This document shows positions 6,744 to 13,217 of a DNA stretch of 64,000 bases, in pieces (positions within the stretch are counted from its first letter, which is position 1; each line of letters opens with the position of its first letter). The stretch is taken from positions 2,966,001 through 3,030,000 of the forward strand of contig NZ_CP125378.1 of NCBI RefSeq assembly GCF_034008635.1. Reading direction: 5' to 3'. The position numbers and the translations under genes were made by a program. The notes under the pieces are model-generated. The model was given only the letters and a program-made list of their open reading frames with translations. It made no database searches and was not told the origin of the DNA. The stretch comes from Pseudomonas sp. P8_229. GTDB lineage: Bacteria; Pseudomonadota; Gammaproteobacteria; Pseudomonadales; Pseudomonadaceae.

Positions 6744-6748
6744 GTTGC
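6744..6748. repeat. Left copy of 5-bp target site duplication (GTTGC)
   Basis: GTTGC directly follows the gyrB stop codon TAG and directly precedes the left terminal TGTAGG. The same five bases follow the right terminus at 13213-13217. Joining the two flanks restores a sensible gyrB 3' region leading into a strong terminator. Confidence 0.95.
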
Positions 6749-6793
6749 TGTAGGTTCACACAATAGTTGATCATTTTCACAAATACATGATCG
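6749..6793 (+). repeat. Left transposon end: terminal inverted repeat and two TnsB-site-like repeats
   Basis: Two similar blocks lie head to tail: GGTTCACACAATAGTTGATC (6753-6772) and TTTTCACAAATACATGATCG (6774-6793). The shared TTCACA...TGATC cores are spaced 21 bases apart. Tn7-family ends carry arrays of about 20-bp TnsB-binding sites, so these are the likely transposase sites. The binding role is inferred. Confidence 0.75.
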
Positions 6794-6807
6794 ACGGACT
6801 CAAATGC

Positions 6808-6839
6808 AAAAAGGCCAATTCATTGAATTGGCCTTTTTT
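6808..6839 (+). terminator. Rho-independent terminator within the left transposon end
   Basis: AAAAGGCCAATTC, a 3-base loop, then GAATTGGCCTTTTTT forms a perfect stem followed by a T run. It lies about 65 bases past the gyrB stop and belongs to the transposon, so it now probably terminates gyrB transcription in place of the displaced native hairpin. The A-rich 5' arm would let it work in both directions. Confidence 0.85.
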
Positions 6840-7502
6840 ATTTCCTCGAAAATTCGATTTCTATCCTGCTCTCCCGGTCACTGGTTACTAACTTATGGGG
6901 GCGGAAGCGGACGACTGCCTAGATATAGGCGTGTTCGGAGTTGATTGAATGTAGCGAGATGAGCGCGTCTGAGTGAGTGATACCGCAAGTATCGAAATGA
7001 ACGCTCAACGCGTATCAATAACGGATCAATTCGTCAAGGAGATATTGAAGATTTTCGTGGAGAAAGACGAATGGTAGGAGTAAAATCTGGCACGCCCTTA
7101 CGCCGTAAGAGCGTCCCAAAAAAATCAGCCGGTTACGTTAACTTGTTGAAGCAAGTTCCTAACGGCCATCGGTAACAGCAAATGCTTTGAGGACCTATCT
7201 GGACAATAGGTTTAAGGCATAACTGCTTTCTTCGACGATCTCATGAGGAGGCATCGAAAAATGTAGATACTGCAGAATTAGAGGCTCTGACAGCGCCTAC
7301 AACCAGGTACATCTTGCGTAACGAACCCGCGCAATTTCTGCCTTTTTTTGGCGCTTGTCAATCCTCTCCCAAAAAATCGACTTCAGCGAGGGCCCTCGAC
7401 GGGGAAGTGTTGCCTGTCGAAAGCCCCTCCTGGAGCCCGCTCTGCGTCTGAGTTATCCGGTGCAGCGCAGGTGCTTGTCTCAAAGATTTGTGGAGGTGTT
7501 CA
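6840..7502. other. Non-coding left arm of the transposon
   Basis: About 660 bases with no convincing gene. A 34-codon frame starting at ATG 7071 and ending at 7175 is present but has no recognisable similarity or good ribosome site. The stretch presumably contains the tns promoter. A strong GGAGG at 7492-7496 belongs to the tnsA start at 7503. Confidence 0.5.
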
Positions 7503-8142
7503 ATGTCAGTGCGTAAGGTTCATTACCAGGAGTTCGAATCATATAAGGATCTCTTTTCCTTCCGTGAAGAATGGAGGCCCTGTTCAGTGTGAATCACAAC
7601 TGGAAAGCGGTTTTGTCAGGCTTCTGGAGCTTTCTCCCATCGTCCGCAGTTATCTCGTACAGCCAAGCCTCGAGTTAGTTTCTATCAGTGGCTCAACCAA
7701 AAAATACTATCCCGACGTACGTGTGTACCTTATGGATGGTCGGGAATGGTGGTTCGAAGTCAAGTACCAAAAGAGCTTGTTGATATCCAGCGTCAAGCTA
7801 AAAATGGAAGCAGTTAAGCAGCACTTTTTTACTACCGACCGCAATTTTTCAATCGTTACCGACCTGCTTATTCACAGTCAGCCTTTGTCGAAAAACTTAC
7901 AAAAACTTATGTACCACCGTCGTGGGCCTATGCTCACGGCTTTGCGTATGAAAGAAATCCACCAGCGGCTTCAAATGCAGAAGCCTGAAACTTTGAGTGA
8001 GCTTATTGCTATTTTTGGCAAGGCGGACGCTTGGCTTTTTTTGGGGTTAGGAATTGTAGGTGTAGATCTCGAAATACCTATTTCCGATGTATCGAAAATC
8101 TTCATTAACGGTGGGCACCGCCATGCAGATATTTTCGCTTAG
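7503..8142 (+). pseudogene. tnsA: TnsA-like endonuclease, frameshifted near its N-terminus
   Basis: TnsA cuts the 5' ends of Tn7-type transposons. The ATG at 7503 has an ideal GGAGG six bases upstream and encodes MSVRKVHYQEF...YKDLF, then meets a stop about 30 codons in. Skipping one base in the T4 run 7554-7557 joins it to FPSVKNGGPVQCESQLE, the typical TnsA entry to the nuclease core. The core keeps the catalytic pattern: E in CESQLE, D in YPDVRV and K in FEVKYQK. A longer frame opening at 7348 has no family resemblance before about 7550 and is an artefact of the shift. This is either a one-base insertion (decay or a sequencing error) or programmed +1 frameshifting. The 3' end overlaps tnsB. 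Confidence 0.8.
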
Positions 8143-11447: not shown

Positions 11448-11756
11448 ATGACCAAACAACGCCGCTCCTTTACTCCTGAATTCAAGCGCGAGGCTGCCGA
11501 CCTTGTGCTCAAACAAAACTACAGCTACATCGAAGCCAGCCGTTCACTCGGCATTGGTGAATCGGCATTGCGCCGCTGGGTTGACCAGATTCAGAAAGAA
11601 CATAAAGGCGTTACCCCGCAGAGCAAGGCACTGACTCCGGAACAGCAAAAAATTCAGGAGCTGGAAGCCCGGATTGCTCGGCTTGAGCGAGAGAAATCAA
11701 TACTAAAAAAGGCTACTGCGCTCTTGATGTCGGAAGATCACGAGCGTTCGCGCTGA
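11448..11756 (+). CDS. IS3-family transposase OrfA (helix-turn-helix protein)
   Basis: 102 aa, starting [20 protein letters not shown] helix-turn-helix of the IS3 OrfA type covers about residues 8-50. A leucine-zipper-like coil ([17 protein letters not shown]) follows at about 68-88. It binds the IS ends and, when not frameshifted, acts as a regulator. The ATG at 11448 suits the conserved N-terminus better than the upstream in-frame codon at 11424. Confidence 0.92.
11705..11711 (+). promoter_or_regulatory. Programmed -1 frameshift heptamer A AAA AAG
   Basis: In orfA phase the codons are CTA AAA AAG, giving the classic A_AAA_AAG slip site. After the -1 shift the frame reads [14 protein letters not shown] and continues into orfB without a stop, producing the OrfAB transposase fusion typical of the family. 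Confidence 0.9.
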
Positions 11757-12610
11757 TTGACCAGTTGAGCGCCCATGAGCCGGTTGATTGGCTGTGCAAG
11801 GTGTTTGACGTCACTCGCTCGTGTTACTACGCCCAGCGCCTGCGGCGCCGCACGCCGGATGTTGAACGGCTTCGATTGCGTAGTCGCGTCAGTGAGCTGT
11901 TCTCGCAAAGTCGCAGCTCTGCGGGCAGTCGCAGCATCCTGTCGCTGATGCGTGAAGACGGTGAGCAACTCGGTCGATTCAAAGTGCGTAGCTTGATGCG
12001 CGAGCTTGATTTAGTCAGCAAACAACCCGGCTCCCATGCCTACAAGCGAGCAACAGTAGAAAGACTGGATATCCCGAACACATTGAACCGCGAGTTCGAC
12101 GTGCCAGCGCCCAATCAAGTCTGGTGCGGCGATATCACCTACATTTGGGCGCAAGGAAAGTGGCATTACCTGGCTGTCGTCCTGGATCTTTGTACGCGTC
12201 GGATCGTGGGCTGGGCGCTGTCGGAAAAGCCAGACGCTGAGCTGGTGATCAAAGCGCTGGATATGGCTTACGAGCAGCGTGGCAGGCCTTCGGATCTGCT
12301 ATTCCACTCGGACCAGGGATCGCAATATGCAAGCCGACTCTTTCGCCAGCGGTTGTGGCGATACCGCATGCGCCAGAGCATGAGTCGACGAGGAAACTGC
12401 TGGGATAACGCACCGATGGAGCGCGTATTTCGCAGCTTGAAAACAGAATGGATACCGACCGTGGGCTATCGAACTGCGCAGGAAGCACAGCGCGATATCA
12501 GCCATTTTTTGATGCATCGCTACAACTGGATTCGGCCTCACCAATTCAACGATGGGTTGGCGCCAGCGCGGGCCGAGGAAAAACTTAACGTCGTGTCCGG
12601 GATTAGTTGA
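11711..12610 (+). CDS. IS3-family transposase OrfB (DDE integrase domain)
   Basis: Catalytic half of the IS transposase, made mainly as an OrfAB fusion through the slip site at 11705-11711; the first in-frame ATG of its own is near 11774. The HTH_21-like N-terminal part is followed by the rve integrase core. Triad residues are D in [10 protein letters not shown] in FHSDQGSQY and E in [10 protein letters not shown], with the downstream K typical of the family. The frame is complete to the stop eight bases before the right terminal repeat, so the IS looks functional. Confidence 0.93.
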
Positions 12611-12618
12611 CCACTACA

Positions 12619-13113
12619 CCCAGTTGCCGAGATGTGCTGATCAAGTAAATTCTTCGCAAACCATCACCTTTGCTATTTTCTATAGGTTTGGAGGTGGGTC
12701 AGTCTCGAGTCAGCGCCTAGGTCAATCGACGTTGGCGTCAGCAGGTTGAGGAGCCTGGAGCGGTTCTGGACCATAGATTCTGAACTGATTGTTGATGTTG
12801 TCCTGAAGCCGGAGGTACCTATATAAAAGAAGGATTTATCTACTTGGGCTTCGTAGGAGCACAAGTCTGAAAAAATAGGCCGGGTCTCTTAGGTATCAGC
12901 GACCCTATCCTGTCACCTTAGGTTTCGGGGGACCAAGCTCGAAAGCTTGGCAGCACGGCACTCACCTTCAAGGGATTAGTGGCATGCGCGCTCCACCCTC
13001 GAGTTTACGTTTCTTCCCTTTTATATCAACAAACAGGTTGGACGAACGACGGAGGTTGTAGTGACTACCTTTCTACTCGGATGCATCTATTCTGTTAGAC
13101 GGGTAGGCTTTTC
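12619..13113. other. Right arm of the transposon, no recognisable gene
   Basis: About 500 bases between the IS and the right-end repeats. An open stretch from 12686 to a stop at 12824-12826 reads like protein (...RLRSLERFWTIDSELIVDV...) but has no start and I cannot assign it. It may be the remnant of the tniQ 3' end or of a lost cargo gene. A small hairpin CCAAGCT/AGCTTGG lies near 12933-12950. The rest appears non-coding. Confidence 0.4.
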
Positions 13114-13212
13114 TCATTTATTTCGTGAATCCCAACCGGCGGATTCACAAAAAAGATGATTTTCTACCAGCGTTTGCTGGGCCTCCCGAATCGTCTATTT
13201 TGTGAACCTACA
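13114..13212 (-). repeat. Right transposon end: terminal inverted repeat and internal TnsB-site-like repeats
   Basis: The outer repeat reads inward as GGTTCACAAAATAGACGATT (13208 to 13189). A second copy in the same orientation, GGGATTCACGAAATAAATGA, is at 13133 to 13114. A third in opposite orientation, GGATTCACAAAAAAGATGAT, is at 13141-13160. The two inner copies form a perfect GTGAATCC/GGATTCAC inverted repeat. They share the TTCAC(A/G)AAATA core with the left-end sites. The binding role is inferred. Confidence 0.75.
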
Positions 13213-13217
13213 GTTGC
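13213..13217. repeat. Right copy of 5-bp target site duplication (GTTGC)
   Basis: Identical to the five bases at 6744-6748 and directly adjacent to the right terminus (CCTACA). It marks the return to ancestral sequence downstream of gyrB. Confidence 0.95.

Follow-up and report, generated by a model that had tools for sequence, protein, structure and literature searches.

We analysed a 64,000-nucleotide stretch of the Pseudomonas sp. P8_229 chromosome (contig NZ_CP125378.1, positions 2,966,001 to 3,030,000; hereafter, the window), in which a Tn7-like element was found directly downstream of gyrB. The 3' end of gyrB was a real, recurrent attachment site for such elements and is apparently undescribed. 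The window element is defective, and it is highly probable that it belongs to a Tn7-like family that homes to this end by TnsD-type, protein-guided targeting, with TniQ as the presumed DNA reader and with a presumed binding block and chemistry.

In the window, dnaA, dnaN, recF and gyrB were consecutive (gene names assigned from translations). The element proper (6749-13212) had a length of 6,464 base pairs (bp) and started 5 bp past the gyrB stop codon, and the conserved EPRRxFIExNA codons were located in the final ~60 bp of gyrB. The element ends, TGTAGGTTCACAcAATAG and TGTAGGTTCACAaAATAG, were 18-bp inverted repeats identical at 17 of 18 positions. The 12-bp end word TGTAGGTTCACA was present in the entire 6.37-Mb genome only at both element ends, in inverted orientation, and a backwards-read control gave 0 matches. 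In addition, repeats similar to the terminal motif were present at both ends and are candidate TnsB sites. The tnsA, tnsB, tnsC and tniQ homologues were oriented away from gyrB. Pfam matches to the TnsA N-terminal, rve and Mu-transposase C domains were obtained, all under curated cut-offs, together with TniB/TnsC (E 3e-31) and TniQ (E 1e-7). A preliminary description of this DNA had noted the terminal repeats with one mismatch, a perfect GTTGC duplication (6744-6748 and 13213-13217), the four homologues and a start five bases past the stop codon (stop 6741-6743, element from 6749). All of these observations held, with tnsA, tnsB and tniQ broken and tnsC intact.

Recurrence at the gyrB end in Pseudomonas

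TnsC was searched for without regard to location in 398 Pseudomonas genomes (E <= 1e-20), and matches were obtained in 20 of them. The element was at the gyrB end in 19 of these 20 genomes, contiguously in 18 and by inference over a contig break in the remaining one. In 16 of the 20, the window among them, gyrB was contiguous with a TGTAGG-type end and tnsA. Genomes G099 and G350 had an element at the same place with a different end type. In G006 (locus L022), the gyrB end, the left end, tnsA and tnsB were on one contig, and TnsC started another contig. A separate collection scan gave five loci, of which four were genomes already counted and the fifth, from P. vranovensis, was a further gyrB case. 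The four loci with a left flank were all at gyrB, and one (L022, the G006 locus) began inside the element. These results supported the attachment site suggested in the preliminary description, on a broader scale than proposed and with TniQ as the presumed reader. The scatter of related elements over other sites, which it had associated with a random insertion, was not what was found.

The element ends were also searched for directly, with a pattern that detects only gaps of 0-14 bp. A gyrB end followed within 0-14 bp by a TGTAGGNTC end was found in 31 of 398 genomes and the reversed pattern in 0 of 398. A search for terminal sequence right after gyrB stops had been proposed by the preliminary description. 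The second end type, TGTCGATNNNCACATTAAG, followed gyrB in 5 of 398 genomes (controls 0). No genome was common to both lists, and 36 of 398 genomes had an end-like sequence at the gyrB end. Among the 31 pattern matches, 17 were also TnsC matches and 14 were not. Three of these 14 (L110, L111, L112) retained tnsA sequence, and 11 gave no tns query match in the sequence fetched (3.9 to 19.4 kb past the end, some bounded by contig ends). Most of these 11 may be decayed remnants. In G007 (L107), one of the 14 and kept in the count of 31, the gyrB stop was followed by TCAGGTGTAGGTTC and then by a host-like terminator. No more than the initial ~10 bp of an element end were present, and this may be a solo footprint of an element, a chance resemblance or an empty site. 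Decayed end-like sequences in G015 and G012 were seen by eye and missed by the patterns.

Strains lacking the element, which the preliminary description had wished to compare, were also found. At the empty sites (e.g., G002, G016 and G010; read from sequence), a terminator hairpin came directly after gyrB and no element lay in between. Among 29 genomes, that of the window counted, an empty-site query found matches in 27. It matched across the join only in G002 and the ambiguous G007, and on one side only in the rest. In G119 (L047), a decayed end-like sequence resembling the element's own end was read by eye right after the distal duplication. It resembles the trace of an earlier element that had used this site.

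Insertion point, orientation and independence

The junctions were measured in 38 cases (point, orientation, INDEPENDENCE). The element started 4-12 bp past the gyrB stop, with 33 of 38 junctions at 5-7 bp (5 bp in 21 cases, 6 bp in 7 and 7 bp in 5; distances of 4, 8, 9, 11 and 12 bp were each seen once). Fifteen of the 38 (L105-L119) were pattern-selected and hence limited to <=14 bp. Six further sites were at 3-12 bp. The tns genes were directed away from gyrB in the carriers that had tns genes and gyrB on one contig. The insertions shared a single orientation and a narrow range of positions; the preliminary description had proposed to test independent insertions for a common point and orientation. 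Fourteen complete elements of 6.5 to 36 kb had matched TGT...ACA ends and exact 5-bp duplications. A paired distal end with an exact duplication was obtained in 6/14, 1/15, 2/2 and 4/10 cases by batch, plus the window. For elements without a paired distal end, the end may lie beyond the sequence fetched.

Element copies that were 100% identical over 5 kb were found beside gyrB ends only 77% identical (G217/G236 and G045/G236), with TCAGG, ATTGG and AGGTA as the duplications. Copies 99.9-100% identical over 5 kb occurred in hosts with 76-78% identical gyrB ends. The different duplications, together with identical elements beside divergent gyrB ends, showed that the insertions are independent of one another.

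Other lineages

A second lineage was found at the gyrB end, comprising elements of 25,957 bp in G099 and 34,039 bp in G350 (both with TCAGG) and of 36,325 bp in G128 (TCCAG). The TnsC of G099 and G350 was ~30% identical to that of the window. Their TniQ aligned with the window-family TniQ over 568 columns (hhalign probability 99.6, 20% identity). Since TniQ could be aligned across both lineages, the region that would read gyrB may go back to a common ancestor and may not have arisen by convergence.

A TniQ profile matched 2 of 369 genomes in a class-wide sample, those of the window and of G504. In G504, a TGTAGGTTCTC end was located 3 bp past the gyrB stop, with cargo between gyrB and tnsA. 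Among 200 genomes of the order of G504, eight had a TniQ match at E <= 1e-25, G504 included. In six of the eight, gyrB and TniQ shared a contig and a strand, with TniQ downstream, and an end-like sequence was present 3-12 bp past the stop. Within the sequence fetched for these six, a matching distal end and a duplication were found for G887, G788 and G880 and were not found for G504, G923 and G921. In G914 and G791, TniQ was on another contig; gyrB nevertheless had an end-like sequence within 9 bp. G504 also had two adjacent TniQ-family reading frames of about 345 and 609 amino acids (L062 2649-5506), which suggests a dual-selector element.

TniQ and the proposed mechanism

Intact copies encoded a TniQ of ~600-640 amino acids with a C-terminal helix-turn-helix region. 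Full-length frames of 603-638 amino acids were present in 16 of 17 copies checked, and that of G215 was short (186 amino acids). The TniQ of G887 had PF06527 at the N-terminus and the helix-turn-helix domain PF12728 at the C-terminus, and the TnsD-type layout was also obtained from models. A TniQ core with a long, predicted multi-helix-turn-helix C-terminal region fits a TnsD-type selector.

We propose that TniQ would bind the EPRRxFIExNA codons of gyrB, which lie roughly 30-65 bp upstream of where the element inserts. The bound TniQ would recruit TnsC and the TnsAB transposase. TnsAB would then insert the element in one orientation, 3-12 bp past the stop and with a 5-bp duplication, and GyrB would be left intact. 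The site, its recurrence, the orientation, the independence of the insertions, the end structure and the gene content form the observed part of this explanation.

Alternative explanations and exceptions

One transposon could have inserted beside gyrB by chance, the other cases being inherited vertically or spread by flank recombination. The hosts of the window and of its nearest relative, G231, were indeed fairly similar, with gyrB ends 96% identical. However, even this pair differed in stop codon and duplication (TAG GTTGC vs TGA TCCCGG). Chance with vertical inheritance was rejected by the independent duplications and by the element and host identities given above, and two lineages with different ends were at the same place, so that this explanation is extremely improbable. 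Homing could instead be guided by RNA, if a CRISPR-associated or other guide encoded by the element matched gyrB and TniQ merely bridged, as in most type I-F3 CRISPR-associated transposons (CASTs). Known CASTs use guide RNAs (PMC11406308), and the window element lacked any reading frame of >=60 amino acids in its first ~0.6 kb. However, the best two matches of each of 13 complete elements to the 160 bp upstream of the insertion were 10-13 exact nucleotides or 15 nucleotides at 93%, which does not exceed chance length, and a guide RNA was rejected. No Rfam match at E <= 0.1 was obtained in window 6500-13500, and the window open reading frames scanned contained no cas domain. No cas effector was found among these frames or among the seven cargo proteins of G231 and G887 scanned, the cas genes of other relatives not being searched. 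The long TniQ also resembles the protein-guided TnsD, and RNA guidance appears very improbable.

A cue other than the gyrB sequence was considered as well: closeness to the origin, replication structure or the termination of transcription after gyrB might be read in a TnsE-like or structure-directed manner. It would agree with the position of gyrB three genes from dnaA in the window and with the terminator hairpin soon after the stop codon at empty sites. However, none of the 20 TnsC matches was located after dnaN or recF. The narrow 3-12 bp spacing and the single orientation, in hosts with unrelated post-stop sequence, fit base-specific reading of the coding end better, and such a cue is very improbable. 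A tRNA or RNA gene as the real attachment site was rejected, with no tRNA in window 4000-16000. The preliminary description had mentioned parE, a gyrB paralog, as a site reported for some relatives. This did not apply to the present elements, as the insertions follow gyrB. The second match of a gyrB 3' DNA query in six genomes was internal, 54-95 nucleotides only; in the window genome it was parE (from translation), whose C-terminus has no EPRRxFIExNA, the motif adjoining the insertions. parE was therefore rejected as a shared target.

Two elements weighed against strict homing to the gyrB end. In G141 (L058), one of the 20 TnsC-bearing genomes, the element was elsewhere and the genome's own gyrB end was empty. 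TnsABC followed an end-like sequence (by eye) ~80 bp upstream of an extracytoplasmic function (ECF) sigma-factor gene (reverse complement, about 13958-20000), and no target duplication was found for this element. It was a related element, with 48% identity in TnsC, and a second TniQ-domain gene of ~389 amino acids was located between tnsC and a divergent tniQ. G141 may be a natural target switch. The other copy was on the conjugative P. putida plasmid NZ_MN310372.1 (L197, 10548 to at least 19427). Over 6,007 bp, it was 96.0% identical to the copy that homes to gyrB in G045, and its identity to that of G236 was 95.9%. An IS21-type element had split its TniQ. Neither the distal end of the copy nor a gyrB gene was found within the 28.9 kb read. 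It would be the expected trace of a two-pathway Tn7-like lifestyle, and no plasmid selector was identified. In a TnsC tree, the TGTAGG-type Pseudomonas elements, G141 and the plasmid copy formed one supported clade, with deeper branches long and uncertain. The gyrB end is not the sole destination of such elements.

Features and decay of the window element

The closest relative found was the 19,211-bp element of G231, with 98.4% DNA identity across 4,800 columns, of which the first ~150 were gyrB. Identity resumed only in the last 469 bp (79%), plus two small pieces: one of 108 bp (84%, in inverted orientation in G231), located within the part occupied by an IS3-type insertion sequence (IS), and one of 31 bp. 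No tniQ match was found beyond the far side of the IS3-type insertion in this comparison. The simplest reading is that an IS-associated deletion removed the remainder of tniQ plus cargo. With its frame-broken tnsA and tnsB and truncated tniQ, the window copy is dead and, in itself, ordinary. The features are given in Table 1. An orfB 97.9% identical to that of the IS3-type insertion was observed inside the gyrB element of G040 (L040, gyrB orientation, 13235-14074).

Table 1. Coordinates of gyrB, the Tn7-like element and its flanks in the window.
Feature	Position	Strand	Remark
gyrB	4326..6743	+	start codon inferred; stop TAG 6741-6743; from sequence
Target-site duplication GTTGC, left copy	6744..6748	n/a	
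gyrB-proximal terminal repeat TGTAGGTTCACACAATAG	6749..6766	+	
Second TnsB-site-like repeat TTTTCACAAATACA, gyrB-proximal end	6774..6787	+	motif also in many other carriers; putative binding
Terminator-like 15-bp perfect inverted repeat followed by T, within gyrB-proximal end	6808..6838	n/a	role inferred
tnsA homologue	7488..8142	+	frame-broken near 7516-7520 (vs G231)
tnsB homologue, DDE transposase	8087..10077	+	frame-broken near 8839-8851 (vs G231)
tnsC homologue, TniB-type AAA ATPase	10074..11015	+	frame intact
tniQ remnant	11095..11383	+	first ~97 residues; 611 in closest relative G231
IS3-type insertion	11384..12618	+	ends TGTAGTGGTC/GACCACTACA read by eye; family assigned from Pfam domains
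IS3-type orfA	11424-11756	+	within 11384..12618
IS3-type orfB	11765-12610	+	within 11384..12618
Distal-end segment	12744..13212	n/a	79% identical to distal end of 19.2-kb relative G231
TnsB-site-like repeats, distal end	13142-13155 and 13118-13131		resemblance to terminal motif; putative binding
Distal terminal repeat TGTAGGTTCACAAAATAG	13195..13212	-	
Target-site duplication GTTGC, right copy	13213..13217	n/a	
Host terminator-like hairpin, right of element	13235..13259	n/a	from sequence; similar hairpin directly after gyrB at empty sites of relatives

Cargo and significance

Two gyrB-homing elements, those of G231 and G887, were scanned for anti-phage cargo. The G231 element (L026) carried HsdR, HsdS, HsdM and a PrrC-like gene (type I restriction-modification), and the G887 element (L151) carried Lamassu LmuA/LmuB-like genes.

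With gyrB, an essential and highly conserved gene joins the short list of Tn7-type homing sites. We lean towards the view that the gyrB 3' end is a major, ancient and previously unrecognised Tn7-like attachment site, in use throughout Pseudomonas and in one or more further proteobacterial orders. At least two lineages, deeply diverged but with homologous TniQ proteins that read gyrB, would use it. Like glmS, it would serve as a safe harbour, the second of its kind; it lies close to the replication origin in the host of the window and is loaded with defence cargo in the two relatives examined. The gyrB end is a predictable place for finding defence cargo and a candidate protein-guided, orientation-specific integration site in pseudomonads. 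It also offers natural replicates, namely two lineages, an exceptional relative with a divergent and a second TniQ elsewhere, empty sites and decayed ends. These make the DNA-reading part of TniQ and shifts in homing specificity directly testable.

Comparison with known systems

The sites named in a review (PMC11406308) were glmS, tRNA genes, parE and comM, and gyrB was absent from the main text of PMC8649781, PMC11406308 and PMC10293859. In PMC12452197, both occurrences of gyrB concerned host phylogeny. PMC4615327 described restriction-modification genes that follow gyrB in Helicobacter and did not mention Tn7, and PMC5098823 used the place downstream of gyrB for an engineered insertion. A search of the open literature, which did not extend to supplementary tables or subscription papers, found no description of a Tn7-like element at gyrB.

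The gyrB-end family had the Tn7-like gene order TnsA, TnsB, TnsC and TniQ/TnsD, and its homing to a conserved chromosomal gene was specific in site and orientation, with one exception in 20 (G141). Tn7 likewise has TnsA/TnsB/TnsC, a 5-bp duplication and insertion in one orientation just beyond a conserved essential gene, on its 3' side. Tn7 proper attaches at glmS, whereas the window element was at gyrB. The Tn5053 family shares TniA/TniB/TniQ-type proteins and 5-bp duplications, has the resolvase gene tniR and is not known to have TnsA. In contrast, TnsA was present in the gyrB elements. Tn5053 targets plasmid resolution sites (PMC11406308). The Tn6022 family is also Tn7-like with a chromosomal gene, comM, as its home; it has a short TniQ (369 amino acids) and a separate selector, TnsF, and inserts within comM (PMC10293859). 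Unlike Tn6022, the gyrB elements had a single long TniQ in most copies and were inserted after the gene. In Tn7017-type I-F3 CASTs, the gene whose end is read by TniQ also encodes a type II topoisomerase subunit, ParE (PMC11406308), which resembles the reading proposed for the present family. However, the window element was at gyrB, and the ParE end of its genome was without EPRRxFIExNA. Tn7017 is CRISPR-associated, whereas no CRISPR component was found in the window element. The likeness to Tn7 itself would extend to targeting, in that a TniQ-domain selector, TnsD, reads the end of a conserved gene, which is glmS at attTn7 (PMC11406308).

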